Below are positions 46,074 through 64,000 of a stretch of DNA of 64,000 nucleotides, one piece after another; position 1 is the first letter of the stretch; every line of letters starts with the position of its first letter. The translations under genes and the position numbers were made by a program. The stretch is taken from NCBI GenBank assembly GCA_002840155.1, contig PGZH01000011.1, forward strand, positions 296,500 through 360,499, given 5' to 3'. The notes beneath the pieces were generated by a model. That model made no database searches. It was given only the letters and a program-made list of their open reading frames with translations, and was not told the origin of the DNA. The DNA comes from Gammaproteobacteria bacterium HGW-Gammaproteobacteria-13. GTDB taxonomy: Bacteria; Pseudomonadota; Gammaproteobacteria; Pseudomonadales; Pseudomonadaceae.

Positions 46074-46093
46074 GCGCGCGGCAAAGCTTCTTT

Positions 46094-46987: not shown

Positions 46988-47030
46988 CGAGCGCGTCTCC
47001 ATGCGAGGTGCGGCTGATTATACGGACGGC

Positions 47031-48036: not shown

Positions 48037-48046
48037 TAACCGTCTC

Positions 48047-48243
48047 CGATCTGCTGCGCGTCGGCGCTGCTGCGTTAAAAACAGGCTCAGCAAGCCGCTT
48101 GCGGCTAACGCGCTTCAGCGCGGCCCGAAGGGCGAGTGAAACGAGTAATGCTCATTTACAGCCGTAAACTCCGCTTACTCGCCTGTTTTGACCAGCCGGA
48201 GGCTGTTACTACGTAGCGCCTTGCATCGCTCTAGCTCGCGAGA
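48047..48243. repeat. interspersed intergenic repeat, copy B
   Basis: About 197 bp between the two rubredoxin genes, homologous in inverse orientation to 31974-32085. Copy B has an additional roughly 55-bp segment (after AAACAGGCTCAGC, containing small GC-rich hairpins) that copy A lacks. The remaining gap up to 48359 shows nothing coding. This repeat explains why the twin rubredoxin genes are unusually far apart. Confidence 0.8.
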
Positions 48244-48359
48244 TCTGAAGCAGTTTCTAAGTCCAGGCTGCTCGAGGCGGCAACCCAAGGGTCGCCGTTT
48301 TGTTTAGCGAGTGCGCATACTGAATACCCCGAACGAGCTGAATAAGCGCCGAGGTGGCT

Positions 48360-48527
48360 ATGCGTAAGTGGCAGTGTGTGGTGTGCGGTTTTATCTATGA
48401 CGAAGCCCTCGGTCTGCCCGAGGAAGGCATCGCCCCTGGCACGGCCTGGGAAGATATTCCCGCCGATTGGCTGTGCCCCGATTGCGGCGTCGGCAAGCTG
48501 GATTTCGAGATGATCGAGATCGCCTGA
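48360..48527 (+). CDS. rubA2: rubredoxin, second copy
   Basis: A 55-aa rubredoxin with CVVCG (C6, C9) and CPDCG (C39, C42). About three quarters of its residues equal those of the first copy, and the last 16 are nearly identical ([10 protein letters not shown]), so the pair arose by duplication. GAGGTGGCT lies before the ATG. Rubredoxin reductase follows 63 nt downstream, so this copy is the likely partner in one transcript. Confidence 0.95.
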
Positions 48528-48590
48528 GCCGCGTTAGCCCTGAAATCTATTACGGCCGCCGCAGTGCGCGGCCTGTGTGAGGAATGCAGC

Positions 48591-49739
48591 ATGAGCGCAC
48601 CTGTCGTCATCGTCGGCACCGGCCTGGCCGGCTACAACCTGGCCCGTGAGTTTCGCAAGCTGGACAGCGAAACCCCGCTGCTGCTGATCACTGCCGACGA
48701 CGGTCGCTCGTATTCCAAGCCGATGCTGTCCACCGGCTTTGCCAAGAACAAGGACGCCGATGGCCTGAGCATGGCCGAGCCGGGCGCCATGGCCGAACAG
48801 CTCAAGGCGGAAGTGCGCACCCACACCCGCATCAGCGGCATCGATGCGGGCCACAAGCAGCTGTGGATCGGCGAAGAAGCCGTGCCCTATCGCGACCTGG
48901 TACTGGCCTGGGGCGCCGAGGTGATTCGTGTGCCGGTCGAAGGTGATGCCGATGATGCGATCTTCTCGATCAATGACCTGGAAGACTACGCACGCTTTCG
49001 CACGGCTGCTGCCGGCAAGCAGCGCGTCCTGCTGCTGGGCGCCGGGCTGATCGGTTGTGAGTTTGCCAATGACCTGAGCCTGGGTGGCTATCAGGTCGAG
49101 CTGGTCGCACCCTGCGAACAGGTGATGCCAGGCTTGCTGCATCCGGCTGCCGCCGCTGCAGTTCAAGCCGGCCTGGAAGGGCTGGGCGCGCGTTTTCACC
49201 TCGGCCCGGTGTTGGCCAGCCTGAATCACCAAGGCGATGCGTTGGAAGCGCATTTGTCCGACGGCACGCTGATTGAGTGTGACCTGGTGCTGTCTGCCGT
49301 GGGGCTGCGTCCGCGTATCGAGCTGGCGGCTGCGGCCGGGCTGGCGGTCAATCGTGGGGTGGTGGTCGACCGACAGCTGCGCACCTCCCACGCCAATATC
49401 TACGCCCTGGGTGACTGCGCCGAGGTTGATGGGATCAACCTGCTCTACGTCATGCCGCTGATGACCAGCGCCCGTGCCCTGGCGCAAACCCTGGCCGGCA
49501 CGCCGACGGCGGTGAGCTACGGGCCGATGCCGGTCACGGTAAAAACCCCGGTCTGCCCGCTGGTGGTCTCGCCGCCACCACGCGGCCTGCAAGGCGAGTG
49601 GAGTGTGGAGGGCAGCGGCGCCGATATCAAGGCGCTGTGCCATGACAGCAGTGGCGCGCTACTCGGTTATGCCCTCACCGGTACGGCCGTGCAGGATAAA
49701 TTGGCCCTGAATAAGCTGCTGCCTGCGCTTTTGGCCTGA
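48591..49739 (+). CDS. rubB: rubredoxin-NAD(+) reductase
   Basis: A 382-aa FAD flavoprotein that reduces rubredoxin with NADH. The N-terminal FAD-binding GTGLAG (about 9-14) and the NAD-binding [12 protein letters not shown] (about 151-162) are visible. The FAD motif [10 protein letters not shown] (about 268-277) and a C-terminal rubredoxin-binding domain complete it. The start at the ATG at 48591 has GAGGAA 7-8 nt upstream, and the nine-codon longer frame is not needed. It is grouped with rubA1 and rubA2 as in P. aeruginosa. Confidence 0.95.
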
Positions 49740-49925
49740 ATGGCGGACGTTCTGTCGGATATGCCACAAAATTGCCTGGTTTAACTGTCGGACAAGACTG
49801 GCGCAGGGCCCAATGGCATGCCATCCTCCCTCAGTCTGCCGCAGCCTAGAGCTGTTGCGGCGCCTTGGTATCTGCTCGCGCAGAGCAGCCCGGACACAAC
49901 AACAAAAAACCGTAAAGAGGCATTT

Positions 49926-50198
49926 ATGCGTAAACCGGAACTCGCCGCCGCTATCGCCGATAAGGCGGATCTGACTAAAGATCAGGCAAACCGTGTACTT
50001 AACGCGGTACTCGAAGAAATCACCAACGCACTGAACCGCAAGGACAGCGTCACTCTGGTGGGCTTCGGTACTTTCGTGCAACGCCATCGCGGTGCTCGCA
50101 CCGGTAAAAACCCGCAAACCGGCGAGCCGGTAAAGATCAAGGCCAGCAACACCGTCGCCTTCAAACCGGGCAAGTCCCTGAAAGATGCTGTAAATTAA
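49926..50198 (+). CDS. hupA: HU-family DNA-binding protein
   Basis: A 90-aa nucleoid protein. The HU signature is present: GFGTFVQRHRGARTGKNPQTGEPVKIKA (about 46-73) with the DNA-intercalating Pro in the NPQTG arm tip, and a C-terminal AFKPGKSLKDAVN. AAAGAGG stands 6 nt before the ATG. It is the last backbone gene before the integrated island, and its 3' flank probably contains the insertion site. Confidence 0.95.
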   Translation: MRKPELAAAIADKADLTKDQANRVLNAVLEEITNALNRKDSVTLVGFGTFVQRHRGARTGKNPQTGEPVKIKASNTVAFKPGKSLKDAVN

Positions 50199-50205
50199 AC
50201 ACAGA

Positions 50206-50411
50206 GCGTTTCATTTTCTGTGGATAAGTTCTGCAAAGCCCCGTAATTCGGGGCTTTGCGCTATCCGAGGTAAGTGAAATTATCGAAACGGTGTTTCATT
50301 AAATACTCAAAAGAAAAAGTGATCGCATTGAAGCAGTAGCGTTTCATTATTGACGCCCATTTAGCCTGTCTATAGGCTTCCGTGCTCGTGAAAAAAGCGC
50401 GGTGTTTCATT
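50206..50411 (+). repeat. four direct repeats GYGTTTCATT at the island edge
   Basis: Copies at 50206-50215 (GCG), 50291-50300 (GTG), 50339-50348 (GCG) and 50402-50411 (GTG) alternate in their second base. The last one contains the GTG start codon of the first recombinase. The second copy also forms a small dyad, GAAAC-GGT-GTTTC. The location suggests recombinase arm-binding sites or an autoregulatory operator. The host/island junction probably lies within this interval. No other copy was found to the right. Confidence 0.6.
50233..50259 (+). terminator. hairpin terminator of the HU gene
   Basis: Perfect 11-bp arms, GCAAAGCCCCG and CGGGGCTTTGC, with a 5-nt loop 35 nt after the stop. The flanks are short of U, but the stem is strong. 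Because it looks like a host terminator, the island probably starts to the right of it. Confidence 0.75.
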
Positions 50412-51628
50412 TGAAGAATTCAGTCTTTTCGCTCACTACCGTCGTCTTCGATAAATTGGGCGGTATAAAACTAAAGCTAGTAACTGAAAGTAGTCAGGTT
50501 GATATATTTGCCGGCGCGTATGCTTTGCAACGATTCGACAATGGTTCGAAGCCAAATACCATACGAGTTGATCAGAGCTCAATTCTGATCCTGTATCGGT
50601 TCTGTGAAATTCAAAAAATAGATTTGATTGAGCGCATCGCAAATCTTAATCCGCTTACTATCGGTGAAATTGAGTCTTTCTCATCGTATTGCGGCTTTGC
50701 TCAACAGAGCGGCGAGCAGGTTAATCCGAATTGGTATGGTGCCCGCATGCGAGGTGCTAAAAAATTTATAGATTACCTGTGGCTGTTCTATGAGGGACGG
50801 TGCGCTCGAAACTTAGAGCAACTCAAAATTGCTAAGCGTTCGTATGAGAGGATGACTGCCGGCTTCAAGTTGTATATGAAAGCCCCTTACAGGGGCGATG
50901 AAAAAGACAGGGTCGGCCTTACTCCTGCACTTCAGGCTAAATTCATTGCAATTATTGACCCTGATGAGAGCAATAATTTAAATCCTTGGAAGATTTATAA
51001 GGTGCGATGGAGAAATTATATTCTCCTGCTTCTATTGATGTTGGGCGGAAATCGTAAAGGTGAGACGTTGTTGTTGAAGCTGAACAATTTCCAGCTTACA
51101 GGAATGCGAAAGTATTACGACATCGTCAAGAACAAAGATGTGATTGATTATCCTCGCGCTGAGTCCCCCTCAGTTAAAACACTCGGCCGGCAGGTGGTGT
51201 TGCATGATCAACTGGCCGCATTAGTTGAACACTACATTGTGAATGTCAGAAAAGAATTCATCGGCTGGCAGTCAACAAGCTATGTCTTCCTGTCTTACCG
51301 GGATGGGCGTCCTCTTTCAGTGCAGACTCCTAATTCAATCCTGAATGAACTTATAAAACAATATCCAGAATTTGTGGGTCTTCTCAGCCCCCATCGCCTT
51401 CGCAATACGTTTCATGATCTTTTGAATCAGGCACTGGATAGAAAATTTAAGGGTGAAAGTGGTTTAAGTCGTAAGGTTTTAAAAGCACCTATTCAGGAGG
51501 CGGCAGGCGGTTGGGCTAAGAATAGTAATATGCCTGAGCATTATGCTAAAGGATCGATACAAGCCAAAGTAGCTGAGTTACAAGCCCTACTCCAGCAAGA
51601 AGCCCTTAAGCCACAACTGGTTGATTAA
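50402..51628 (+). CDS. tyrosine recombinase/integrase, first of three
   Basis: A 408-aa site-specific recombinase. The catalytic set is present: R218 in GGNRKGE, H331 and R334 in HRLRNT, W371 in GGWAKN, H380 and nucleophile Y381 in EHYAKG. The N-terminal half is a DNA-binding core-type region without a known family name. The start is the GTG at 50402, which lies inside the fourth GYGTTTCATT repeat. No strong ribosome binding site is visible. The gene is clearly more AT-rich than the HU side. Its stop abuts the ATG of the next gene (TAAATG). Confidence 0.88.
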   Translation: MFHLKNSVFSLTTVVFDKLGGIKLKLVTESSQVDIFAGAYALQRFDNGSKPNTIRVDQSSILILYRFCEIQKIDLIERIANLNPLTIGEIESFSSYCGFAQQSGEQVNPNWYGARMRGAKKFIDYLWLFYEGRCARNLEQLKIAKRSYERMTAGFKLYMKAPYRGDEKDRVGLTPALQAKFIAIIDPDESNNLNPWKIYKVRWRNYILLLLLMLGGNRKGETLLLKLNNFQLTGMRKYYDIVKNKDVIDYPRAESPSVKTLGRQVVLHDQLAALVEHYIVNVRKEFIGWQSTSYVFLSYRDGRPLSVQTPNSILNELIKQYPEFVGLLSPHRLRNTFHDLLNQALDRKFKGESGLSRKVLKAPIQEAAGGWAKNSNMPEHYAKGSIQAKVAELQALLQQEALKPQLVD

Positions 51629-53233
51629 ATGAAAGAACTCCATAGTCAGAGGGTGTTGTCCGGCAACGATGAACTTTCAGATTTTTTGCCGGGAGGCACT
51701 TTTGTAAAAAGTCGATTGGGCTATGACATCGAATTATTTGATGAGTATGGTGGCTTTCGGTCTGCAATAAAACTGCCGGATGATACGGGTGAGTTTGTTT
51801 ATCTTACATCACAGTATCTTAATCTGTTGGATTTTGAGTTAAGTGAGATTGCGAGGAGTTATCTAAGATATATCTTGGAGAGATATCATGCTTCAACTGT
51901 TAGAATTAAATATAAGTTTCTTGATTTGTTTGCCCGTGAGATGTCCAAAGGAGTTCATATCAACGACTTCTTGGAAAATATTTCTGTGCTTGAAAATAAA
52001 GAAAAGGCAGCATATATCTCTGCTTGTAAGGAATTTTTGAAGTTTCTATTGCTTTGCGGCTATGAAGATCTTTCACTTGAAGTGTATGAGGATTTCCATA
52101 AACTTCGAAATTATTCAGGTAAAGAAAATGCCTATTTAGCTCTATTTGTAATGGATGATGCCAGAGGGCCATTTACTAGAGAGGAAGTTTCCGTACTGTC
52201 AGGTCAGGTTAATAACCAGGCACTTCCGTTGGAATTTCGCTTGGTGTTAGATCTGTGTTTGTGTTTTGGGTTGAGACCAATACAAATTTCTTTATTGAAA
52301 AGAAAAGATTTTATTAAAGATAGTAGGAGCGGATTGTATTATCTTAACGTGCCGCGCGTGAAGCAAGATTCGCGCAATCGGCGAGTTCAATTCAGCTCTC
52401 GAATACTCACGGAAAGAACTGCAAGTCTTATTCAGTCTTACATAGATTCTGCAAAAAATCCCGATGGTATTGATCCTGCAGAGCTACCACTTTTTATTAA
52501 CTCAAAATCGATAAATTTAGAACGAGACGGAAATACCTTAGGAAGTCACTACTGGGAAGATGCAGAGCGGTTGTCAAGTGACTATTTCTCAGATGAGTCA
52601 AAGCGGGCCATACTCTACCAAAAGTCGAGTGGCAAAATTAATTATATCCTTTGGGGAAATGAACATAGGCTGCCATTTTCCCCTCGTACCGGAAAGAAAT
52701 TCAGTTTGTGTGCATATAGATTTCGTTACACGGTTGGCACGCAAGCAGTAATGTCCGGTTGTTCGCCAGAAGAGCTTGCCGATTTACTCGATCACAATGA
52801 TACGAATAGCATTAAACACTACTTCAGATTCACTCATGAAATGTGGGAGATTCTAGAAAATGCTACGTTGAGTCGCATTGAACAGAAGCAATTCACAGCT
52901 GCTTGGATGAGAGAAGGTGACCTTGTAAATAATATATATAGTCACGTATGTGAACCAAGAAATTTCAATGTCATAGGAAAGTGTGCGTCTCAATCTATAT
53001 GCTTCGAGGAGCCGGCGGTATCTTGCTATTCGTGTGACAGATTTTGTCCTAATAAAGATGTTGTAGCACATGAAAGTGCTTTGGAGGGTTTGGTAGAGCG
53101 AAAAGATCGCTTGCTAACCGTCAGCACCGCTAATGTAGTTTCAGTTATAGACCAGGCCATAGCTGGTTGCCGTGCTGCAATCGCCTACTCTGAAGGGCAG
53201 GACGTGGTTCTAATTAATGTGAAGGAAGTCTGA
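51629..53233 (+). CDS. tyrosine recombinase-like protein with a C-terminal Cys cluster, second of three (GmtY/TnpA-like?)
   Basis: The 534-aa product has the R1 motif GLRPIQISLL in the middle, a box-II motif YRFRYT (Tyr where His is usual) and LADLLDHNDTNSIKHY with nucleophile Y398. Beyond the catalytic Tyr come five Cys (452, 458, 466, 469, 473) in a zinc-ribbon-like arrangement, then about 60 more residues. The gene begins directly after the first recombinase stop and abuts the third. It is AT-rich. The role is inferred as a co-recombinase for excision and integration of the island. Confidence 0.82.
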   Translation: MKELHSQRVLSGNDELSDFLPGGTFVKSRLGYDIELFDEYGGFRSAIKLPDDTGEFVYLTSQYLNLLDFELSEIARSYLRYILERYHASTVRIKYKFLDLFAREMSKGVHINDFLENISVLENKEKAAYISACKEFLKFLLLCGYEDLSLEVYEDFHKLRNYSGKENAYLALFVMDDARGPFTREEVSVLSGQVNNQALPLEFRLVLDLCLCFGLRPIQISLLKRKDFIKDSRSGLYYLNVPRVKQDSRNRRVQFSSRILTERTASLIQSYIDSAKNPDGIDPAELPLFINSKSINLERDGNTLGSHYWEDAERLSSDYFSDESKRAILYQKSSGKINYILWGNEHRLPFSPRTGKKFSLCAYRFRYTVGTQAVMSGCSPEELADLLDHNDTNSIKHYFRFTHEMWEILENATLSRIEQKQFTAAWMREGDLVNNIYSHVCEPRNFNVIGKCASQSICFEEPAVSCYSCDRFCPNKDVVAHESALEGLVERKDRLLTVSTANVVSVIDQAIAGCRAAIAYSEGQDVVLINVKEV

Positions 53234-55891
53234 GTGCAAAATATAATGGCACAGGATATTTTGCATGAGGAGCTTCGGATTAAGCTAAACCGCCTTGCCA
53301 GCAAAGCCGAGGAGAGATTCTCAAAACTCAGTTGTTTCAATGGGTCAAAGTGGGAGGATCTCTCCTGGTTATATAACGGAAGGCATAATGTTTATTTGCT
53401 GGCTCGCGGAGAAACTAATGCAGAGTTAATGCTACTTAATAAGGTCTTCTTGGTAAGTTATCTCTGGGACAGAAGGGCGGACCACAAGGTGGTATCAGCT
53501 GGTCGCGTTATGGACTTATCGGCTGCGGTAAAGTATATGGCTGCTCAGGGTGTTGTTAACCTTAGAGGGCTTGATCAATCTTCCTACATGACAACGTTTA
53601 AATATATTCAAACACGCTATAAATCACCTGCTAGTGCATGTAGATCGCTAAATTATTTTATCAGATTCATCTTTAATTCTTCCTTGACCGTTAGCAATTT
53701 TGACCTCATCGGTACGCAGGATCTTCAAGAGAAAGATAAGTATGGCCGTGTTGCCCTTGGAGATAAACTGCCGCTTCCAGAATTGGTCAAAGCAATCATA
53801 GCGTTGAAGTGGGCAGTGCAAGACCAGTGGGATGGCAGCTTTCGTGCTCAGATGGATATGTTGTCGGTTCTGACTCAGGCATTTCAATATGGATTAGGCC
53901 TAAGAATCGGGGAGGTTCTGCGGTTACCTAAGAACTGCTTAGTTACAATAAACAGTGAGTTATATTGTCGAGTATGGACAGAAAAAGGTGCGGAGCCAAT
54001 CGCCAGGTATGTCCCTACTATCTGGAGAGCCGCCCTCTGTGAAGCGGTTCTCCGAATTGATGCCATCTGCGAACCCTACAGAAAAAGGGCTTTGAGCATT
54101 GAAGATGGTTCCTATGCCGAGACTCTCGATTATCGCTTTCAGGGAAGAACAGAAGCAATTGATCGGCATATTGAGTCTACCCTAAACTGTCTATCTAAGA
54201 AAATAGAGTCTAATGTTTCAGCGTCTGAAAGACAGTTGCGCCTCCTGAAGTATCTGCCGGATGAAGAACTTGTTGAGCTCAAGAATTTGCGTGAGTACTT
54301 ACCATTTGCCTCGAATTCGCACGACTCTACTTCACTCCTTAAATTCTACAAAAAAAACGGATTTAAGATAACTTCAAAATCACTCGGAAAGGTAAAGTGC
54401 GTTTATTATGTACGAGGATCTGATGTTAAGCAGCGACTTGCTCAATTGATAGAGTTTCGCCGCAATATTGTTTTATATTCTGAGTTTTTTGAGGTGCTCC
54501 ATAAACGACCACCTGCAGGAAGTCGGTCTAAGGATGTACACGCTCTAAAAGATAGGTTGCAGTCGCAAAGCCTGGCTTCTTTGGAAGCCTTTGTCTTGAC
54601 GGGGGAGTCGTGTCTTTATGGTGCGAGGATAGTATATCTTAGTCGTGACGATGCAGTTGCCGCAATAAGAAATATTGTCAGTGGTGGGTATGATTATCGC
54701 GCTTACATTCCGATATTAGATGCTGAGGAACTTTATCCAGAGCTGTTCAACCAGAAGACCATGACCTACATTGCTAATGCAAATGCGGCTGGGTTCTACT
54801 CGTTTCTTAGAGTCTCGGAAGAACGAATCAATTTTTATAGGCCAGTCGCGAAAAGCAATAGAGTTAAGCATTCTGCCGTATCTGGGTTCTTGGTTGAACA
54901 GGCCAGCATTAAAAGTGCCGTTGTAGATGCTTTTGTATCAGTTAATACAAAAGTTAAGTCAGAACTAATCCAGGGAATTAAAGAGGAACTTCTAGCGGAT
55001 GGAGTAGAGATTGGTTCGGCTACATTTGGGATAAATCAAAAAGTCTCTGATTATTTATTTGTTGTCCCAAGCAATCTTGGCGGTGTGTATAACGAACACA
55101 TTCCATCTATCCTTGGCTATTTTTCTGTTCTATATGCGATAAAACCAGCTAAGCAGGGGCAGTCAGCGTTTGTCCGTTACGGTGTTGTAGCCAATGAAGA
55201 GATTGTAAGTACGTTTCAGACCCACAAGGGACGACATTGGCAAACTAATTCACTTTTTCGGGCGGGCTTGGCTGCAAGTATTGTGAATAAGTGGATGGGA
55301 AGATCTGATAGTCAAGGTGATCATTACGATCATCAGACTGCTAAAGAACGTGCTGAGAAAGTCGGTGAGCTTATGCTCTCTGAGCAGTCCCGCTTTATTG
55401 GTGATCTGGCGAATAAGGTCAAGGCTTGGACTGACAATGATATTCCGACCCAGAATGTGCAGACCTTTTTGACTGATATGCTGCAAACCGTACATTACGG
55501 TCCGCTTGGGCATTGTTTTCGTGATATTAATTTGAAGCCCTGCGAATTTCATCTGAAGTGTCTGACCGGCAATTCAGGAAAAGGCTGTAGAGAGTTCGTT
55601 GTAGATCTTTTAGATCCAGTTCAAATAAAGCAAGTCGAGTCAGAGCGTAATAGATCAGAAATTGAGTTGGCGCGGCTTTTTGAAGCCTTGAATAGACCCG
55701 GTATCCCGGTAGAGTCTGTTGAAATGCATATCGAACATCAAATGGCGATTTTTAGAAATGCTTCTTATATTTTAGATAATTCTGAGGTGGTGCTTAACGA
55801 AATTCAAGTTGAAAAGAGTAAGGACTATCAGCCATTTAGGACCAATGGCTCTGTTCCAAGCGACTGTGTATTCCAATGTGGAGTAGCTTGA
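53234..55891 (+). CDS. large tyrosine recombinase-like protein, third of three (GmtZ/TnpB-like?)
   Basis: The 885-aa product is very long for a recombinase, but it keeps a plausible catalytic set: R224 in GLGLRIGEV, H664 and R667 in HKGRHW, W687 in WMGRSD and H697-Y698 in GDHYDHQ. The large gap between R224 and H664 holds an insert of more than 300 residues of unknown function. A Cys cluster follows the Tyr (HCFRDINLKPCEFHLKC, then a further Cys). It starts with GTG, directly after the previous stop. The trio of adjoining recombinases implies that they act together. It might also be catalytically silent and architectural. Confidence 0.75.
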   Translation: MQNIMAQDILHEELRIKLNRLASKAEERFSKLSCFNGSKWEDLSWLYNGRHNVYLLARGETNAELMLLNKVFLVSYLWDRRADHKVVSAGRVMDLSAAVKYMAAQGVVNLRGLDQSSYMTTFKYIQTRYKSPASACRSLNYFIRFIFNSSLTVSNFDLIGTQDLQEKDKYGRVALGDKLPLPELVKAIIALKWAVQDQWDGSFRAQMDMLSVLTQAFQYGLGLRIGEVLRLPKNCLVTINSELYCRVWTEKGAEPIARYVPTIWRAALCEAVLRIDAICEPYRKRALSIEDGSYAETLDYRFQGRTEAIDRHIESTLNCLSKKIESNVSASERQLRLLKYLPDEELVELKNLREYLPFASNSHDSTSLLKFYKKNGFKITSKSLGKVKCVYYVRGSDVKQRLAQLIEFRRNIVLYSEFFEVLHKRPPAGSRSKDVHALKDRLQSQSLASLEAFVLTGESCLYGARIVYLSRDDAVAAIRNIVSGGYDYRAYIPILDAEELYPELFNQKTMTYIANANAAGFYSFLRVSEERINFYRPVAKSNRVKHSAVSGFLVEQASIKSAVVDAFVSVNTKVKSELIQGIKEELLADGVEIGSATFGINQKVSDYLFVVPSNLGGVYNEHIPSILGYFSVLYAIKPAKQGQSAFVRYGVVANEEIVSTFQTHKGRHWQTNSLFRAGLAASIVNKWMGRSDSQGDHYDHQTAKERAEKVGELMLSEQSRFIGDLANKVKAWTDNDIPTQNVQTFLTDMLQTVHYGPLGHCFRDINLKPCEFHLKCLTGNSGKGCREFVVDLLDPVQIKQVESERNRSEIELARLFEALNRPGIPVESVEMHIEHQMAIFRNASYILDNSEVVLNEIQVEKSKDYQPFRTNGSVPSDCVFQCGVA

Positions 55892-55893
55892 TT

Positions 55894-56349
55894 GTGACTA
55901 CGTCTACTGAGCAATGGGGTAAAGCTTTTTCGGTATTGCAACAATTTGAAAGACAGCTGATAGATCCTTCAAACTTTGGGTGGAAGTATATTACCGATAA
56001 GTCTGGTGTATCTAAGCCGACCCTTTGGCGAAACAAGGAATTTGAAAAAGAGTTTCAACGTATTAAGGAAGTTGTCAAAAGTTATGCTCGTGGTGAGAAA
56101 CAGTTCGATCAAGAGGTTTCACTGAAAGCGGCCAGAGATCGTGATCGAGATCACCAGATCGAGGTGCTCAAGGCACAGGTCCAGGAGTTGACGAAGCAAT
56201 TAAATAGGGAGCGCGAAAGACTCATATACGCCTCTATGATTGCTCGCCGTAAGAATATCGATCCTGCGGAATTCTTAGATGAGAGCCCAGTGTTTCGTAA
56301 GCCTGCCAAAGGCGGCTCGGTGGTCAAGCTGCCATCAAAGGGGCACTAG
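55894..56349 (+). CDS. small coiled-coil accessory protein of the recombinase module (GmtX/TnpC-like?)
   Basis: The GTG at 55894 with GGAG 10 nt upstream gives 151 aa. An ATG at 55876 overlapping the previous gene is the alternative. The N-terminal part (about 20-60) contains a possible helix-turn-helix (YITDKSGVSKPTLWRNKEF). A charged coiled coil (about 85-120, DRDHQIEVLKAQVQELTK) follows, then a basic tail. Small coiled-coil proteins accompany the paired recombinases of Tn554 (TnpC) and similar modules, so an orientation or accessory role is inferred. No downstream terminator is visible. Confidence 0.75.
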   Translation: MTTSTEQWGKAFSVLQQFERQLIDPSNFGWKYITDKSGVSKPTLWRNKEFEKEFQRIKEVVKSYARGEKQFDQEVSLKAARDRDRDHQIEVLKAQVQELTKQLNRERERLIYASMIARRKNIDPAEFLDESPVFRKPAKGGSVVKLPSKGH

Positions 56350-56503
56350 CCAAGTCGGGTGCCATCATCTGGCTTTGTACTGGCATTTAAGGCCAAATAG
56401 CTCTTGCTGTACTTTTGCTCCGCGGCCAGCCCCTCAATGCCACCCTGTCCTCGAAACCGATGGGGTTGAGCTTCTCATCTCGGTCGATGCGGCGCATAAC
56501 TAA

Positions 56504-56764
56504 CTACTTGGCGTTGGCGGAGAGATAGAGTTCCGGCACCGCAATTCCCGCCGCCCTTGCCGCGGACATACAACGGTACTCGTTTACCGCCAACCTCGAT
56601 AACTCCTCCTGGCCGCCCTTGATGATCAGGCCAGAGGTTTTCGAGGCGAGACCTGGCACATAGCAGGCTGCCAACCACATAAGTAACCCGAAAATACTGG
56701 CCACAATCGGCGGAGGTATCCTGTTTTCCAGTGTTCGCATAAAAGTGCTCGATAACGCAGCCAC
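56504..56764 (-). pseudogene. fusion of gene fragments: methyltransferase N-terminus plus HipA-like kinase piece
   Basis: The open frame reads like two unrelated remnants joined. Residues 9-40 (MRTLENRIPPPIVASIFGLL) resemble the first helix of isoprenylcysteine-type membrane methyltransferases. Residues 43-86 (IKGGQEELSRLAVNEYRCM...AGIAVPELYLS) resemble the N-lobe of HipA kinases. Neither is complete. The piece lies between the recombinase module and the dsb genes and marks a deletion scar. 56350-56503 holds nothing else that I can identify. Confidence 0.6.
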
Positions 56765-56787
56765 AGCGTTTGCGCCAGTCGCTATGT

Positions 56788-57432
56788 TTAGCGTACTTTT
56801 TGCAGTTCGCTCTGCACTAGTTCTAGCAGCGGCTCCGGGCCGAACTTCGTCAGCAGCGTGCCGTTGACGAAGAAAGTTGGCGTGCCTTGAATCCCCACTT
56901 TCTTAACGTCCGCTGCGTCTTTAGCCAGGATGTCGTCGATAGCCGGCGAGTTCATCGTGGCGCGGGCCTTCTCGACATCCAGGCCAACTGCTGCTGCGGC
57001 TTCCCAGGCCTTCTGCGCTTTCGCGTCGTCATGCCACAGCGGCTGGGCCTCCAGCACGGCTGCTAGCACAGGCTCGTAAAGCCCCTGCATTCGCGCCGTC
57101 TCCAGCAGGCGCACGGCCTCTTCTGAACCTTTGTGGAACAACACATAGCGCACGACCAGACGCACGTCCTGTGGGTACTGCGCCATGATTTGCTTTACGT
57201 AGGGGAAGAACGCCCGGCAGCTTTCGCACGATGGGTCGAAGAACTCGACGATGGTGACCGGCGCCTTGATTGGCCCAAGGGTTGGCGAGTGGAAACGTAC
57301 CAACGAACTGCTCGCCTGGGTGACTGCTTGAGTCTCCTGAGGTGCTGAAAAACGCTGATAGAGCACTGCCGCAGCGATAAAGCCGGCAATGGTTACAGCG
57401 CTGATGGTCAGTACGATGGCACGTCTATTCAT
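56788..57432 (-). CDS. DsbA-family periplasmic thiol oxidoreductase
   Basis: The 214-aa product has an N-terminal membrane anchor (about 7-26), then a DsbA-like thioredoxin fold with the active site C69-E-S-C72 in DPSCESCRAFF and a cis-Pro near 186 in GIQGTPTFFVNG. A helical insert lies between. It probably faces the periplasm and forms or handles disulfides. It overlaps the dsbB-like gene by 4 nt, so the two form an oxidant/oxidase pair. Such pairs are common cargo beside metal-resistance genes, where they may protect thiols during metal stress. Confidence 0.88.
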   Translation of the reverse strand: MNRRAIVLTISAVTIAGFIAAAVLYQRFSAPQETQAVTQASSSLVRFHSPTLGPIKAPVTIVEFFDPSCESCRAFFPYVKQIMAQYPQDVRLVVRYVLFHKGSEEAVRLLETARMQGLYEPVLAAVLEAQPLWHDDAKAQKAWEAAAAVGLDVEKARATMNSPAIDDILAKDAADVKKVGIQGTPTFFVNGTLLTKFGPEPLLELVQSELQKVR

Positions 57433-57866
57433 ACAAGGGTTCTCCGGCGAATCAGGGCAAGAAGCAAGACGATGGCGGTGAAAGCCGCCAGGGAAAGCAG
57501 CGGCAGCGGCACGCTACCAAAGATCAGCATATCGGCCCCGGAACAGGAGGTTCCGGCGCTACACGGCTTGAGGTTTTCTGGAAGTATGCCCATGAACAGC
57601 AGGGAGTGATACAGGGCGATTGCCCAACCGATAACGGCCAGGGGCAAGGCGTAAAGCCAAACGGCGAAGTCCGCGCGATAACAGGCGACCGTCAGCATTA
57701 CCCCCAAAGGAAACATGAAGATGCGCTGGAACCAGCACAGCACGCATGGGGTTTTGCCCATGACTTCACCGATAAACAAGGCGGCTAGGGTTGCGGCCAC
57801 AGCCAGCAACCACACAGAGAGCAGCAAACCCCAGGGGTTAGCGGAGGGGTGACTCTGGCTTCTCAT
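57429..57866 (-). CDS. dsbB: DsbB-family quinone-linked disulfide oxidase
   Basis: The 145-aa inner-membrane protein has four helices, the first periplasmic pair CVLC (about 41-44) and the second pair in CSAGTSC (about 102-108). It would pass electrons from its DsbA partner to quinone. The size and topology are those of DsbB. It starts 6 nt after a Cys-rich micro-ORF and overlaps the dsbA-like gene, so all three may share the cadR transcript. Confidence 0.87.
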   Translation of the reverse strand: MRSQSHPSANPWGLLLSVWLLAVAATLAALFIGEVMGKTPCVLCWFQRIFMFPLGVMLTVACYRADFAVWLYALPLAVIGWAIALYHSLLFMGILPENLKPCSAGTSCSGADMLIFGSVPLPLLSLAAFTAIVLLLALIRRRTLV

Positions 57867-57872
57867 CGTTAT

Positions 57873-57992
57873 TTACTCGCCATTTTCCTTAAATAGGGAT
57901 GGCACGTTAGCGGGCCCGCAGCAGCTGTCGATTGGCTTTGTGTTACAGCATGCGTCCTGCACAGGAACCGGTCGATTCGCTTGGCGTTGCAA
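57873..57992 (-). CDS. Cys-rich micro-ORF upstream of dsbB, function unknown
   Basis: A 39-codon frame with a possible TTG start at 57992. It carries two CC pairs (DACCN and DSCCG) and continues upstream in frame with a further CCAC before a TGA at 58026-58028. The stop lies 6 nt before the dsbB ATG. The Cys spacing suggests thiol-metal binding. The start is uncertain, and it may be the 3' half of a frameshifted gene together with 58009-58131. Confidence 0.35.
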   Translation of the reverse strand: MQRQANRPVPVQDACCNTKPIDSCCGPANVPSLFKENGE

Positions 57993-58008
57993 CCAGCAGG
58001 CACAGCAA

Positions 58009-58131
58009 CTATCGAGCTGGGCGGTTCATCTTGATGACGAAGCTCCCATTAAGGCTGGGGCTGGCAACTACAACGTGAATCGCGCCGGGGGTTTGTAAAT
58101 ACTTTCCGCGCTCTTCTAAGGCGATGGTCAA
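58009..58131 (-). CDS. 40-codon ORF directly after cadR, possibly the 5' half of a broken Cys-rich gene
   Basis: A TTG start overlaps the cadR TGA (TTGA). The frame contains a coding-like stretch (GAIHVVVASPSLNGSFVIKM) and stops at 58009-58011. A single-base shift near 58015 would join it to the Cys-rich frame at 57873-57992, giving roughly 80 aa. No family is recognised. The whole 57867-58127 interval otherwise holds nothing. Confidence 0.3.
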   Translation of the reverse strand: MTIALEERGKYLQTPGAIHVVVASPSLNGSFVIKMNRPAR

Positions 58132-58580
58132 TGACGGTGGCTTTTCCCAACATGGGTGTGCCCGTCATCCGGAAGCGCATTGACTCCGCCAGTGGTGTTC
58201 AGGCGCTGGAGGATTCCGCACTCGTCTACGCCCCGCTCAGAAGCGCAGCGGTGGCGCAACTCAACCAGCTGTTTTTGCAGCGCCAACAGGCTGGTCACGC
58301 GTGCTTGCACATGCTCAATGTGCTCATCCACTAAGCTATTTACACCCTCACAGTTTTCCTCTGGCCGATCCATCAGCGCCAGCAAACTTCTGATCTCGTC
58401 CAGGGTCATGTCCAGCGTTCGGCAGTTGCGAATGAACGTAAGCCGCTCAAGGTGCTCACTGCTGTACAGGCGGTAGTTACCCTCGCTGCGAGCCGGAGCC
58501 GGCAACAGCCCCTCGCGCTCGTAATAGCGAACCGTTTCAACCTGGCAATCGGCAAGCTTGGCCAGCTCTCCAATTTTCAT
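58128..58580 (-). CDS. cadR: MerR-family Cd/Pb/Zn-responsive regulator CadR
   Basis: The 150-aa activator has an N-terminal winged-helix domain (MKIGELAKLADCQVETVRYYEREGLL), a long dimerisation helix and a metal site with C77, C112 and C121 (C77, C112 and C119 in the P. putida protein as I recall). A His-rich tail (HTHVGKSHRH) completes it. The start is the ATG at 58580, because the ten codons before it are not family-like. It is transcribed divergently from cadA across an 82-bp gap that holds its operator. Confidence 0.94.
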   Translation of the reverse strand: MKIGELAKLADCQVETVRYYEREGLLPAPARSEGNYRLYSSEHLERLTFIRNCRTLDMTLDEIRSLLALMDRPEENCEGVNSLVDEHIEHVQARVTSLLALQKQLVELRHRCASERGVDECGILQRLNTTGGVNALPDDGHTHVGKSHRH

Positions 58581-58602
58581 GAAATACCTCTTCGACAAAC
58601 GC

Positions 58603-58626
58603 TTGACCATGTAGTGGCTTCAGGGT
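58603..58626 (+). promoter_or_regulatory. CadR operator and cadA promoter
   Basis: TTGACC at 58603-58608 fits a -35 box. The dyad 58606-58626 has outer arms ACC and GGT and inner TGTAGTGGCTTCA, close to the MerR/CadR type in which Tyr-recombinase-like symmetry is absent and ACCCTGTAG is the usual left arm. The spacer up to a -10 (TTCACT or CACTCT) is 19-21 bp, long as in MerR-regulated promoters. The exact -10 is uncertain. Confidence 0.75.
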
Positions 58627-58662
58627 GTTCACTCTGCATAACTGATCAATGAGGATACCCCC

Positions 58663-60911
58663 ATGGCTGGCTGCTGCAGTGATGAACACAAACCTGAAGC
58701 GGTTTCAAATGATGTCTGCTGTGACCCCAATGAGGCAATTAAGTGCTCCTCCGCTACAGCCTCAACGGTAAATGCCGTAGCTGGCTCCAGGCTCAGCAGC
58801 TTTCGCATTGCGCAAATGGACTGCCCTACCGAACAGTCGCTGATTCAGGACAAGCTGAGCAAGCTCGCAGGCGTAGATAAGCTCGACTTCAACCTGATCA
58901 AACGGATTCTTGGGGTATGGCACAACTTGCCGTCGACCGCCCCCATCGAGGAGGCGATCTTGTCCCTGGGAATGCAGGCAGAACCGCTCTCTGCTGAAGG
59001 GCAAGCCCGCATCAAAATTGAACAGATGGACTGCCCAACGGAAGAAAAGCTGATCCGCGACAAGCTCTCCTCAGTGCCCGGCATCAGCGCGCTGGAGTTC
59101 AACCTGCTGCAACGCGTACTGACGTTTAGCCACACAGCAGAAGCATTGCCAGCAGCACTGGCCGCGATTCGCGACCTTGGTTTCACGCCAGTGGTTGAGG
59201 ATTCAGCAACAGCAAATGAAGAAGCGCAAGGAACCCCGCGCAAGAAAGCCTGGTGGCCCTTGGCGCTCTCGGGCGTGGCCGCCGTATCGGCGGAAGTGAT
59301 CCACTTTGCCGAGCTTGCGCCAGATTGGGCTGTGGCTGGCGTGGCGCTGCTCGCCATTCTGCTGTGCGGCCTAACGACCTATAAAAAGGGCTGGATCGCG
59401 CTGAAGAACCGCAACCTGAACATCAATGCGCTGATGAGTATCGCGGTGACCGGTGCGGTGCTGATTGGGCAATAGCAGAACTGATCGAAGCGAAGTCATT
59501 GGATCGGGCTCGCAATGCCATCCGCGGCCTGATGGATCTGACGCCGGAGCGCGCCACGGTGCAGCAGATCGATGGCACATGGCTTGAAGTTGACGTTAAA
59601 ACTATCGCCGTAGGCGCATTGGTCAGGGTAAGACCGGGCGAACGAATCGGTCTCGACGGCGAGGTGACGTCCGGCAACTCCACCATCAACCAAGCGCCCA
59701 TCACGGGGGAAAGCCTGCCCGTAGAGAAAACCATTGGCGACCCGGTTTTTGCAGGAACCATCAACGAAGCCGGCTCCCTGGAATACCGCGTCCTAGCCGC
59801 CGCTGCCAACACCACGCTGGCACGTATCATTCACGCGGTCGAAGAGGCGCAGGGTTCACGTGCGCCGACCCAGCGCTTTGTCGATCAATTCGCCAAGGTA
59901 TACACCCCTGTCGTATTCCTATTCGCCCTAGCTATCGCCATTGTGCCGCCACTCTTCATGGCCGAGCCCTGGTACGACTGGATCTACCGTGCTTTGGTGC
60001 TGCTGGTGGTCGCCTGCCCTTGCGCCTTGGTCATATCGACGCCCGTCACCATTGTCAGTGGCCTGGCAGCGGCGGCGCGTAAAGGCATTCTGGTCAAAGG
60101 CGGCGTCTATCTGGAAATCGGTGGCAAGCTTGGCTTCCTGGCACTCGACAAAACCGGAACCATTACTCATGGCAAGCCGGTACAGACCGATTACATGCCG
60201 TTGGTTGAACAGGATTCAGAACTCTACCGTACTCATGCTGCCAGCCTCGCCAGTCGCTCTGACCACCCGGTTTCGCAGGCAATAGCCAAGCATGCCACTG
60301 AGAATGGCCTGACGTTTGCTGCCGTTGAGGGATTCGAAGCCCTGCCGGGTCGAGGTGTTCGAGGCACCATCGAAGGCATAGATTTCCACCTGGGTAACCA
60401 CCGCCTGGTGGAAGAGCTTGGCCTCTGCTCACCCGAGCTGGAAGCGACGCTGGAGCGTCTCGAACGCCAAGGTAAAACAGTGGTGGTGCTGTGCAATCCG
60501 CAGCGTGCCATTGCCCTGTTCGCCGTTGCCGATACCGTCAAGGACTCCAGCCGCCAGGCAATTGAGGAGCTTCACGCGCTTGGCGTGAAGACCACAATGC
60601 TGACCGGCGATAACCCGCACACCGCAGATGCGATTGCACAGCAGGTAGGCATCGACGAGGCACGCGGCAACCTTCTGCCAGTCGACAAATTGCAGGCCAT
60701 TGAAGCATTGCAGGCGCGCGGCTACGTTGTAGGGATGGTCGGCGATGGCATCAACGATGCGCCGGCGCTGGCGAAGTCTGAAATCGGTTTCGCCATGGCC
60801 GCCGCCGGCACGGACACGGCCATCGAAACTGCGGATGTGGCCTTGATGGATGACGACCTGCGCAAGATCCCGGCCTTCATCCGCCTGTCTCAACAGGGGT
60901 TGGAGGATTGA
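58663..60911 (+). pseudogene. cadA: cadA, P-type Cd/Zn/Pb ATPase, frameshifted and truncated
   Basis: The first part (58663-59475) encodes a Cys-rich N-terminus (GCCSDEH, DVCCDP), two MDCPTE metal-binding domains (about 47-110 and 120-180) and the first helices. It stops at LIGQ. The second part (from about 59476, frame +2) resumes at AELIEAKSLDRARN. It keeps the TGES loop, CPC in ACPCALVIS, DKTGT and GDGINDAPAL. By comparison with the intact family, about 13 codons (WPEAAMVMVLFTI) are missing at the junction, a roughly 37-bp deletion that shifts the frame. The protein also ends at AFIRLSQQGLED, lacking about 70 C-terminal residues with the last helices. It should be non-functional. Confidence 0.88.
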
Positions 60912-60913
60912 AG

Positions 60914-61261
60914 ATGAAAGCAGCATTGCAACTCGCAATTGAACAAGCCTTTCAGCAGGCCCGGCAGGCCATGCAGGAACAGCGCAGTACAGATGCCTTT
61001 CAATGGCTGGAGCGCGCGCACATCCTGACTCAGCGCCAACCTTTGCTGCATGCCAGGTCACACTGGCTGATGCTCACGCTCGGCTGGCAAATTGGCGATT
61101 ATCGCGAGGTGGCGGGGCAAATACCGCGCATTGTCGCGGCCCTGCTGTTTTCCAGAATTTGGGTGCCCATCGGCAATACCGGCCGCTCGAGGATCAGTGC
61201 TTTCGCGCCCATGCCCATCTCTCAGGAGTTGCAGCGACTTCTCCAAGGAGGAGAACAATGA
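60914..61261 (+). CDS. DUF3703 family protein of the metal-resistance operon
   Basis: The 115-aa product shows the DUF3703 pattern: ALQLAIEQAFQQARQAM at the start, a FQWLERAHILTQRQPLLHARSHWLML core (about 32-57) and a GNTGRSRISAFAPMPI end. The family lies in heavy-metal operons next to cadA or pbr genes, with no proven function. The start at the ATG at 60914 has GGAGG 7 nt upstream. It begins just past the cadA stop and overlaps lspA (ATGA). A cytoplasmic location is inferred. Confidence 0.85.
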   Translation: MKAALQLAIEQAFQQARQAMQEQRSTDAFQWLERAHILTQRQPLLHARSHWLMLTLGWQIGDYREVAGQIPRIVAALLFSRIWVPIGNTGRSRISAFAPMPISQELQRLLQGGEQ

Positions 61262-61770
61262 AGTCACTTCCTGGAGTGACACACTTTATCGCTCCCTGGC
61301 GTTGGTGGACGCTAGCGCTGGCCATTGCCTCGGCCGACCAAGCGCTCAAGAGCGCAATTGCGGGGGCGCTACCGGTCGGCAGCGTCATTCCGCTGGCCCC
61401 GTTCTTCAATCTGGTTCATTTCTGGAATACCGGTGCAGCGTTCAGCTTCCTGGCTGACGCGGGTGGTTGGCAGCGTTACTTTTTCAGCGTCATCGCCTTG
61501 GTCGTTTCGGTGGTGCTGGCTCTGATATTGCGTAAACCCAGAGCCAACAGCGAAGCCCTAGGCTATAGCCTCATCTTAGGCGGTGCCGTTGGCAATCTGA
61601 TTGATCGAGCCTCGCAAGGCCATGTGATCGACTACCTGGATTTTTACTGGCAGTCCTGGCATTGGCCTGCGTTTAACCTGGCGGATATCGGTATCGTCGG
61701 TGGTGCGACCATGTTGATCCTGAGCAGCTTACTGAACCCGAATGAGGAAACCGGCCGAGCCAGAGAATGA
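61258..61770 (+). CDS. lspA: signal peptidase II (LspA/PbrC-like) in the metal operon
   Basis: A 170-aa membrane aspartic protease that removes lipoprotein signal peptides. It has four helices, GNLIDR (about 113-117) and the catalytic Asp pair D125 (GHVID) and D143 (FNLAD). It is probably an extra copy of the housekeeping enzyme, since such copies are typical of lead/cadmium operons (PbrBC type). GGAGGAGAAC precedes the ATG. It overlaps both neighbours by 4 nt, so it is co-transcribed from the cadA promoter. Confidence 0.92.
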   Translation: MKSLPGVTHFIAPWRWWTLALAIASADQALKSAIAGALPVGSVIPLAPFFNLVHFWNTGAAFSFLADAGGWQRYFFSVIALVVSVVLALILRKPRANSEALGYSLILGGAVGNLIDRASQGHVIDYLDFYWQSWHWPAFNLADIGIVGGATMLILSSLLNPNEETGRARE

Positions 61771-62513
61771 AAGACTTGCCCTCAACAGGCGCGGTGCGCT
61801 GGGCAGGCCATGCCTGGGTGGGGCCCGGCATCGGCATCTTTCATGGCCGTGCCGGCCACCAGGATTGGCACCACCATCAGGCACATCAGATCTCAGCGGG
61901 TCTCGATTCACCTGTATTGGTTGAAACGCCGCTGGGCATTCAAACAGGATCGGCCGTCTTCATCCCGGCCGGCTTGCCGCATCGGCTCAGCGCCAACCGA
62001 GTGCTATCGATCTATCTGGATGCAGTGTCCGATGAGGCGCGTGCTTTGTGTGGCAGCGAAACAGCGCGGGTGATTGAGATCGCGCCGGGGGATATCACGC
62101 CGATTATCGAGGCGCTACGTGAGCCAGGGCACACTGCACTTCAGGTAAGAGCGGGGGTGCGCCAATCACTGCAACTTTCCGATCCGCCGCCTTCAGATCC
62201 TCGTTTGACCACTGTGGTTGAGGCGCTGCGTAGTGGCCAAATGGGACGCGACGAAATGGCCGCGTTGGTGCATTTATCCCCCTCACGGTTTTCCCACTGG
62301 TTTGTAGAGCAAACCGGCCTGCCGCTGCGCAGCTATGCGAAATGGTTGCGTCTCACGCAGGCCCTGCAATATGTGGCCAAAGGTGTACGACTAACCGAAG
62401 CAGCTCATGCAGCGGGCTTTTCTGACTCGGCGCATTTCTCCCGGACATTCCGGACGCTGCTGGGCATCGATCCTTCTTCCGCACTGGCTGAGGTCGATCT
62501 TCAGGAGTCATAG
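61767..62513 (+). CDS. AraC-family regulator with an N-terminal cupin-like domain
   Basis: The 248-aa protein has an N-terminal ligand-type region with a His cluster (DWHHHQAHQIS, about 33-43) that could bind metal, and a C-terminal AraC double helix-turn-helix (about 145-240). The latter contains MAALVHLSPSRFSHWFVEQTG and LTEAAHAAGFSDSAHFSRTFR. It overlaps lspA by 4 nt, so it belongs to the same transcript. Its target may be the desaturase-like gene 69 nt further on. The His cluster is unusual and suggests metal sensing, which is only inferred. Confidence 0.85.
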   Translation: MKDLPSTGAVRWAGHAWVGPGIGIFHGRAGHQDWHHHQAHQISAGLDSPVLVETPLGIQTGSAVFIPAGLPHRLSANRVLSIYLDAVSDEARALCGSETARVIEIAPGDITPIIEALREPGHTALQVRAGVRQSLQLSDPPPSDPRLTTVVEALRSGQMGRDEMAALVHLSPSRFSHWFVEQTGLPLRSYAKWLRLTQALQYVAKGVRLTEAAHAAGFSDSAHFSRTFRTLLGIDPSSALAEVDLQES

Positions 62514-62581
62514 CTCTTTCGTTCAAGCCGAAAGCGGGTCTCCCCACATACAGTCATGGCTCCCTACCCAGGAGCTGAGCG

Positions 62582-63451
62582 ATGCCTATTTTCCTGCGAT
62601 TCCCCCTACGCTGGCTGAGCTATCCACTTGTGTTTGGTGGCTGTGCCGCCTTCATGCTCTGGGCGCTGTACGCGGGAGTGCCGTATTGGCCCACCACACC
62701 GGTAGTCGCCGCGGTGGGTCTGTTAAGCGTCGCGGGGTTAGAGCGCATCCAGCCTTTTCGCGAAGCCTGGCTTGAGGATCATCAAGACACCGCGACCGAC
62801 CTACTGCACATGCTGGTGAATCTCTCCGTCATCCAGTTCACCGCTGAAATCCTGGCCAGGCTGGGCGATGCAGTGCCAGCTACGGTTCGTCTCTTCCCAG
62901 TCGAGAGCCCACTTTGGCTGCAACTGCTGCTGGTCGCCGCCGTGCTCGATCTGAGCCTGTATGCCATGCATCGTATCAGCCACCATGTACCCTGGCTGTG
63001 GCGTTTTCACATGATTCATCACAGCGCCGAGCGGCTGTACTGGATCAACGGGGAGCGCCGACACCCCTTGCACGCCGCACTCATGGCCGGTCCGGGGCTG
63101 GTGATTCTGCTCGCATCAGGTGCTCCATCCGCAGTGGTTGCTACCTGGTTTGGCATTTTGACCGTGCACTTGGCGTTCCAGCATGCAAACCTGGACTACC
63201 GACTGGGATGGCTGCGCCACATCATCGGGGTTGCTGAAATTCATCGCTGGCATCACAAGCGCGACTTTGCGGATGCCCAGGTTAACTTCGGAGAGTTTCT
63301 GATGGTGTGGGATCGACTGTTTGGCACGTTCTACGACAGCGCAGGGAAGCTGGGAGAGGCAGAGGTTGGATTGCATGAAAAGGACTATCCCAAAGACTAC
63401 CTTGGACAGTTGACCGAACCCTTTGGGCGAGACCTTACAAGCCAAGGCTAA
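62582..63451 (+). CDS. sterol desaturase/fatty-acid hydroxylase-like membrane protein
   Basis: The 289-aa di-iron membrane oxygenase family member has several helices (about 10-30, 40-60, 75-95, 110-130) and the His boxes HRISHH (about 129-134), HMIHH (about 143-147) and HRWHH (about 222-226), in the order of the family. It should hydroxylate or desaturate a lipid in the inner membrane. It is the last gene seen of the metal island and may be controlled by the AraC protein before it. The substrate is unknown. A link to membrane adaptation under metal stress is speculative. Confidence 0.85.
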   Translation: MPIFLRFPLRWLSYPLVFGGCAAFMLWALYAGVPYWPTTPVVAAVGLLSVAGLERIQPFREAWLEDHQDTATDLLHMLVNLSVIQFTAEILARLGDAVPATVRLFPVESPLWLQLLLVAAVLDLSLYAMHRISHHVPWLWRFHMIHHSAERLYWINGERRHPLHAALMAGPGLVILLASGAPSAVVATWFGILTVHLAFQHANLDYRLGWLRHIIGVAEIHRWHHKRDFADAQVNFGEFLMVWDRLFGTFYDSAGKLGEAEVGLHEKDYPKDYLGQLTEPFGRDLTSQG

Positions 63452-63918
63452 CGGATTCTCTTGCGAAGGGCTGCCGCTAGGTGCAACACGATGCCCCTAG
63501 TGAGTGGCTCTGGCTAGCTGATGAAAGCGCGCGCCCGTTGAGCCGATGCCACCCAACGTAAGCTCGCTCGCCCGCAACCAATGTGAGCCCAAGGCTATGC
63601 CAGTCGCAGTTAATCTGAGCTGGAGATCGCATCGATTGCGAGCTCGGCCGAACTCAAACGCGAGCTGATTCAACTACTGGTTCATGGCTCGAAACCATCA
63701 GCAGAGTGGTGCACAACCACTGGAATGGGCGACTCATATCCTCTGGAGCAAGTGGCCCATTTCACTGCAATACATAGCGTTGCAGTGAGCTGATCGCCTC
63801 TCTAGCGAATGACCTGGGCCAACCCAAGCTGGGCGCTCTCACGGCCTATACGCCGTTTTTGTTGAAAACCTGCACTTAAATGTCGCTTTAAGACAACTTT
63901 TATTGCCGCCTTGTGAAG
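63452..63918. other. non-coding interval at the right of the island
   Basis: About 470 bp with no gene I can support. A frame at roughly 63625-63792 (LEIASIASSAELKRELIQLL) is open for some 55 codons but has no start with a ribosome binding site. It may be decayed coding DNA. The last 80 bp are AT-rich and lead into a probable promoter. Confidence 0.4.
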
Positions 63919-63934
63919 ATTACAGAATTGTAAT
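63919..63934 (+). promoter_or_regulatory. copper-type two-component operator (cop-box-like)
   Basis: ATTACA-GAAT-TGTAAT, with perfect 6-bp arms, lies within an AT-rich promoter-like stretch. Two TATCTTCA/CATCTTCA-like direct repeats follow at about 63942-63961. The dyad resembles CopR/CusR-type boxes of copper operons. The regulated gene would start outside the window. Confidence 0.5.
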
Positions 63935-64000
63935 TTTCCAATCATCTTCAAGTTATCTTCAGCTTGCAAGGATAGGGCTCAGCTCCCCAAAGGCGCAGAG

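Follow-up and report, generated by a model that had tools for sequence, protein, structure and literature searches.

A probable GInt island in the 3' end of an HU gene, with related islands on chromosomes and a conjugative plasmid

Genomic islands of the GInt type (Genomic Island with three Integrases) were named by Bardaji et al. in 2017 and are defined by the operon ginABCD. Its products, three of them tyrosine-recombinase-like and the fourth small and helical, are all required for integration and excision (PMC5385486). According to the same paper, the operon is followed by cargo and an AT-rich 3' end, imperfect direct repeats form the borders, and the targets named are an ABC transporter gene, ssb and a ribonucleotide reductase gene, with ssb the site of six of the 11 GInts analysed across species. 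The authors could not demonstrate transfer of GInts from cell to cell and proposed transformation or transduction (PMC5385486). Here we describe a 64,000-nucleotide stretch (the window) of Gammaproteobacteria bacterium HGW-Gammaproteobacteria-13, a member of the Pseudomonadaceae (contig PGZH01000011.1, positions 296,500 to 360,499), in which four genes beside an HU gene are, with high confidence, the ginABCD operon of a GInt that has inserted site-specifically into the 3' end of that HU gene. Sequence comparison shows the operon, both ends of the island, empty sites in relatives, and near-identical copies that occur across hosts and occupy HU genes of two kinds. The six-base cores at the island ends, taken with the near-identical copies, suggest hopping between plasmids and chromosomes.

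A ginABCD operon and its products

The first-pass annotation had placed four AT-rich genes at 50402-56349, three for products of 408, 534 and 885 amino acids, each with a candidate catalytic tyrosine, and one for a small helical protein, and these observations stand. In the list of open reading frames (ORFs) all four are on the plus strand, the first three abut and the fourth, of 157 aa, overlaps the 885-aa ORF by 16 bp, and the G+C fraction is 0.426 over 50184-56349 versus 0.626 over 40001-50178. The tyrosines find support in alignments: Y381 of GinA in 10 of 10 rows, Y398 of GinB in nine of nine, and Y698 of GinC in 10 of 10. The start of the element, taken to be 50402, needs correction; the four genes do adjoin the HU gene, but the left end lies earlier, at 50186, within the HU 3' end.

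The first gene, ginA (50402..51628, plus strand), encodes a 408-aa tyrosine recombinase with R218, K259, H331, R334, W371 and Y381, and its product passes the curated cut-off of the Pfam Phage_integrase family (28.4 against 27.1 bits). The 534-aa tyrosine recombinase encoded by ginB (51629..53233, plus strand) has R216, K245, R366, H389 and Y398, with Tyr363 at the usual place of the first His. The product of ginC (53234..55891, plus strand) is an 885-aa protein of the tyrosine-recombinase fold in which a long insert splits the catalytic domain; it carries R224, K251, H664, R667, R690 and Y698, as well as four conserved cysteines (761, 770, 776 and 785). GinB and GinC score below the Phage_integrase cut-off, at 20.8 and 14.8 bits. 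The predicted structure of the 157-aa product of ginD (55876..56349, plus strand) has a helix-turn-helix followed by a 50-residue coiled-coil helix (mean predicted local distance difference test score, pLDDT, 84.5). Pfam and NCBIfam matches to GinD were all below their cut-offs and resemble coiled-coil noise, and PADLOC gave a single weak 12-bit match only. GinD may form a coiled-coil dimer that binds DNA and assists the recombinases; Bardaji et al. state that it has low identity to TnpC, with the data not displayed there (PMC5385486).

GinC has been said to lack catalytic residues (PMC10214605) or, more narrowly, the first Arg (PMC5385486). The set R-K-HxxR-R-Y is nevertheless kept in all 42 aligned GinC homologues. 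The invariance of H664 and R667 in alignment A4 is partly built in, since the 80 loci were collected by a pattern that included the HxxR motif; R224, K251, R690 and Y698 lay outside the pattern. All six residues are also present in alignment A1, whose 10 rows were not collected with the HxxR pattern. Alignment A5 included two wrong ORFs (L160 and L175), and both of these, together with the near-duplicate L194, were excluded from A6. The published view of a GinC without catalytic residues is testable through single-residue changes.

The locus also resembles a GInt in its overall build. The three recombinase-like genes and the gene for the small helical product stand in GInt order, and the operon lies at one end, adjoining the target gene, with cargo from the ginD end onward, as it does in Pseudomonas peli. 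The 3' end is AT-rich, with 29% G+C in the last 100 bp before attR in the window genome and 33% in three relatives (41.5-44% over the last 200 bp). The imperfect direct repeats, 10-17 nt in GInts, have a counterpart in attL TGAAAGATGCTGTAAATTAA and attR TGAAAGATGCGGTCAACTAA, which are identical at 17 of 20 positions, and the insertion is site-specific, with an empty site in relatives. Among 298 genomes of the genus, the 885-aa protein had matches at E<=0.001 in 42 and at 70% identity or more in five, one of them a contig-end fragment. Genes A, B and C are in tandem in all 13 distant loci that were fetched, although L113 has a short ginA. The 80 named loci obtained by scanning GTDB species genomes include 65 that together hold 66 complete A-B-C operons (one locus has two); the other 15 had no complete operon by the rule used, with contig-end cuts and split or short genes, and include the P. 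marincola locus L133, whose ginB spans two ORFs. Of the 66 operons, 30 have an ssb gene in the 1.5 kb upstream, four have an HU gene there and 32 have neither, five of these 32 beginning at most 400 bp from a contig end. A small ORF follows ginC in 63. Since the order and products of the operon match and relatives sit at ssb, a published GInt target, we file the window operon under GInt.

The first-pass annotation was right to see an integration module with several recombinases beside the HU gene, and the insertion site is polymorphic among relatives. The view that the system is under-described does not hold, as three recombinases and a small helical protein are the defining operon of the GInts named in 2017, nor is the fourth member a novelty, the small helical gene being part of that definition (PMC5385486). 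The island is therefore of a known kind, at a target gene that we did not find named for GInts. No GInt at an HU gene was named in the texts seen: the main text of PMC5385486 lacks the words histone, hupA, hupB and nucleoid, and PMC10214605 lacks histone and hupB, the name HU itself being too short to search, and supplementary tables may list such a case. The papers seen do not report hopping between plasmid and chromosomal HU genes for GInts either. GInt operons or GinC relatives also occur in records labelled Alphaproteobacteria and Acidobacteria (L151, L160, L171, L180, L227, L234, L236, L157, L165 and L175); PMC10214605 reports finding no such elements in Alphaproteobacteria.

Ends of the island in the HU gene

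The target HU gene (49926..50198, plus strand; 90 aa from ATG) was recognized by its HU match and, as the target, by comparison with attR and with the empty HU site of a relative (G014). The six-base attL core GAAAGA occupies 50180..50185, and the left end reads CT-GAAAGA-TGCTGTAAATTAA. From 50186 onward the HU tail is supplied by the element, which encodes the peptide of the native tail (DAVN, stop) in different codons and so re-supplies it. The right end lies on contig C4 of the window genome, to which the right flank of the G014 HU gene also maps, and reads GGGTTATT-GAAAGA-TGCGGTCAACTAA, followed by a repeat, about 140 bp long and bounded by inverted ends, and then by the flank. That repeat, directly after attR (about 246.65-246.8 kb on contig C4), has CTAA on both sides, and many similar copies exist in P. 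peli and in genome G084. Of the GInt, 13,815 bp (50186..64000, plus strand) fall in the window, whose end is the contig end; contig C4 contributes a further 23.8 kb or more, which gives 37.6 kb for both known pieces. A search of 57 genomes for the HU region had matches in the window genome and 42 others; none of the 42 matched past query position 503, about the HU stop, short hairpin matches aside.

Several features mark the left end. Four exact copies of GTTTCATT lie at 50208..50411 on the plus strand (starts 50208, 50293, 50341 and 50404, the last overlapping the ginA start), compared with a mean of 0.01 and a maximum of two in 20,000 Markov-1 simulations, and they are candidate recombinase-binding sites. 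A perfect match to the DnaA-box consensus, TTATCCACA on the minus strand, is found at 50219..50227. It is identical in all eight aligned left ends of the HU clade and occurs in seven of 64 GInt left regions, five of those from that clade; judged from these left ends, the box is a trait of the HU clade rather than of GInts at large. Just past the HU stop, a hairpin read from the sequence (50234..50258, plus strand) may act as a replacement terminator, although it has no T run and a terminator scan made no call there.

Related islands, plasmid copies and cargo

Nine islands sit in HU genes: those of the window genome, P. peli, P. marincola, P. indica, G084, three metagenome-assembled genomes (MAGs C1, C17 and C24) and a plasmid of P. 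putida YC-AE1. P. peli DSM 17833 has the entire element, 53.8 kb, on one contig at the same HU site, and in MAG C1_concoct.bin.126 (G090) the element is a 70.2 kb contig with att at both ends. The gin region is more similar to that of the window than the left flank is in five of six pairs, as would be expected from transfer between species: 99.98% versus 95.5-97.2% for MAG C17, 99.77% versus 95.6% for MAG C24, 98.1% versus 90.7-92.4% for P. peli, 99.16% versus 79% for MAG C1, and 88.5% versus 76.3% for P. marincola. The P. marincola copy, with its ginB in two ORFs (L133, 8395-10000), may be inactive. In P. indica (L245) the sequence past attR resembles a GInt left end (TTTTTCTGTGAACATGAAAAGCCCC...) and is perhaps the remnant of a second element.

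The MAG C1 contig (C29) was considered as an excised circle and rejected, for the branch bases do not fit. It ends at att and overlaps the neighbouring contigs C4 and C18 of the same assembly by exactly 141 bp; at its left end there is a further 141-bp overlap, with contig C5, on which a different HU gene lies. These overlaps suggest that two HU sites are occupied, whether within a single genome or in two organisms sharing the metagenome bin. A second right flank for this island was looked for and not found; for contig C5 no clear kinship to plasmids emerged, and five relatives had no long match next to its HU gene.

A megablast search of 72,556 plasmid records with the window gin region gave one match, a 504-kb plasmid of P. 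putida YC-AE1 typed as conjugative (NZ_CP047312.1), and the operon of this plasmid used as query again found that single plasmid record. The operon follows an HU gene of the plasmid, and the element is about 32.5 kb long. Plasmid and G084 chromosomal HU genes share only short nucleotide similarity. Over the roughly 12.1 kb compared, identity between the two islands is 99.61% (1,539 bp) and 99.64% (1,923 bp) for two stretches on the left, and 99.85% for 8,634 bp on the right that run up to att. The plasmid HU locus is present in 114 plasmid records, and the one sister examined, p12969-DIM, has an empty site, with left and right homology sharing 14 bp within the 3' end of its HU gene. GinC had tblastn matches in 24 plasmid records, and among the 15 whose contexts were inspected ssb was upstream in four, HU in one and neither in 10. 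The four at ssb are an Escherichia coli IncY plasmid, Serratia marcescens pPM120-2, P. aeruginosa pTROUS1 and Paraburkholderia sp. D15, the last with a group II intron between. The P. aeruginosa plasmid NZ_CP133756.1 (L229) carries a GInt with Qat anti-phage cargo and also the HU locus.

Metal-related cargo, which had been proposed for the island, is present. In the window it begins (56350..64000) with DsbA-like and DsbB-like proteins, a MerR regulator, a heavy-metal P-type ATPase in two ORFs, LspA, an AraC regulator and a fatty-acid-hydroxylase family protein. The ATPase is split into ORFs of 270 and 470 aa (58663-60911) beside the MerR-family regulator and LspA, and its frame looks interrupted. 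Contig C4 of the window genome adds a helicase, a fatty-acid hydroxylase, an AraC regulator, a CusS-like sensor with its response regulator, two cupredoxin-family proteins, two metal P-type ATPases, and NicO, TraX, VTT, AAA and DUF6088 proteins. Contig C9 and the ends of contig C23 of the window genome correspond to the middle part of the element in P. peli; both ends of the 333-kb C23 match pieces of that island, which may reflect a rearrangement or shared repeats.

Six-base cores, transfer and known systems

The attL and attR cores are both GAAAGA in the window genome and MAGs C24, C17 and C1. They are GAAAGA and TAAAGA in P. peli, CAAAGA and GAAAGA in P. marincola, GAAAGA and CAAGGA in G084 and P. 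indica, and CAAGGA and GAAAGA in the YC-AE1 plasmid, so that attR differs from attL in five of the nine islands. For the plasmid, the empty sister has CAAGGA, which makes the attL core the host's and the attR core foreign, while the bases just past attR are the host's again. The G084 cores mirror those of the plasmid. Among the chromosomes of 29 relatives, the HU core is GAAAGA in 14, GAAGGA in four, CAAAGA in three, CAAGGA in two and AAAAGA in one, with five outside the pattern. The strand-biased circularizing integrative element (SE) SE-6945 provides a precedent, as the six bases beside its right end in a new site derive from the left side of the donor site (PMC9345347).

An alternative is that the attR differences are products of ordinary heteroduplex repair or mutation and say nothing about a donor. 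Bardaji et al. attribute the attI variants seen in GInts to staggered cuts of 6 nt followed by repair of the heteroduplex (PMC5385486), and the cores here differ in just one or two bases of six. We consider this account unlikely, though the strongest of the alternatives, given that the plasmid attL equals the empty sister while attR does not, with host bases past attR, and that the near-identical G084 copy has mirror-image cores. Foreign cores would be allowed under both the SE rule and the Bardaji account, but the SE rule would place them at attR, which matches the sole case that can be judged. The kind of donor, plasmid or chromosomal, is suggested and not proven.

Two other readings concern the element itself. 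It is quite improbable that the island of the window genome is fixed and no longer mobile: the 140-bp repeat directly beside attR and the metal ATPase in two ORFs would fit such a state, whereas each of the four gin genes has an open frame, and the gin region is almost unchanged from MAG C17 beside a more divergent left flank. That the element is an SE instead of a GInt is less probable by far. SEs have four core genes, as here, and a six-base attR tag (PMC10214605, PMC9345347), but their order is intA-tfp-intB-srap, with the odd protein second. That order is absent here: as in GInts, it is the third gene that encodes the large non-canonical protein of recombinase fold, and relatives lie at ssb, a target named for GInts.

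For the GInt as we read it, movement may proceed as follows. GinA, GinB and probably GinC would cut and join DNA at the left end, with its GTTTCATT copies, and at the AT-rich right end, assisted by GinD as a DNA-binding coiled-coil protein like TnpC or Srap. Excision or copying would yield a circle bearing six bases of the old site, and upon integration into a new HU gene these bases would end up at attR while the element's own tail replaces the HU tail. Because the clade uses HU genes both on chromosomes and on a conjugative plasmid, an HU gene borne by a plasmid could plausibly carry these islands from cell to cell. We tentatively propose a composite of three statements, which may well not all hold together: HU-targeting GInts are chromosome-plasmid shuttles, for which HU is what ssb is for other GInts and a plasmid HU gene is the docking site into new cells; the foreign six bases at attR record the last donor; and GinC is a catalytically armed third recombinase rather than an inactive DNA-binding relative.

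Several observations weigh against these views. The evidence is comparative, and movement itself was not observed. The link to GInts is made through the operon, the ssb site and homology to the operons there. The P. indica gin region is 75.1% identical to that of the window, below the 79.5% of the flank, and the two ends lie on different or overlapping contigs in six of nine islands (the window genome, MAGs C24, C17 and C1, P. marincola and G084). The cores are equal and carry no tag in four of nine islands, the window's included; a foreign core was proven against an empty site in the plasmid case only; and CAAGGA also occurs in two of 24 readable chromosomal HU genes. With 10 of the 15 inspected plasmid GInts at neither HU nor ssb, docking at a plasmid copy of the target holds for some and not most. 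The near-identical chromosomal and plasmid copies with mirror-image cores nonetheless make the plasmid-docking route directly testable.

Gamma-Mobile-Trio islands have a multi-gene recombination module and island cargo. The first-pass annotation had likened the layout to these islands and to Tn554; the layout of Tn554, with three genes, differs (PMC10214605). No family named for GmtXYZ was among the NCBIfam matches at E<=1, the presence of such models in the library being unconfirmed, and the passages of PMC12039261 on Gamma-Mobile-Trio describe the islands only. Tn554 itself, with tnpA, tnpB and tnpC only, was rejected, as four genes are present here and the third product has 885 aa; this sets it apart by description, not by sequence comparison. 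The Tn554 family shares more than one recombinase, the small protein TnpC and a six-base tag, and differs, again by description, in its three genes and in having no large third recombinase-fold protein (PMC10214605).

SEs come closer, sharing four core genes that encode two plain recombinases, a large recombinase-fold protein and a small coiled-coil protein (PMC10214605, PMC9345347), possibly six donor bases at attR (here five of nine cores are unequal, one proven foreign) and residence on a conjugative plasmid as well as a chromosome; they differ in gene order, and their published protein clusters are distinct from those of GInts (PMC10214605). With the GInts of PMC5385486 the island shares the ginABCD order, the first gene beside the target, cargo after ginD, an AT-rich right end, short imperfect repeats and horizontal gene transfer between species. 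Unlike them, it targets the HU 3' end, its right-end cores show an SE-like tag pattern, and its GinC keeps Arg-Lys-His-Arg-Arg-Tyr, where that paper describes the first Arg as missing.

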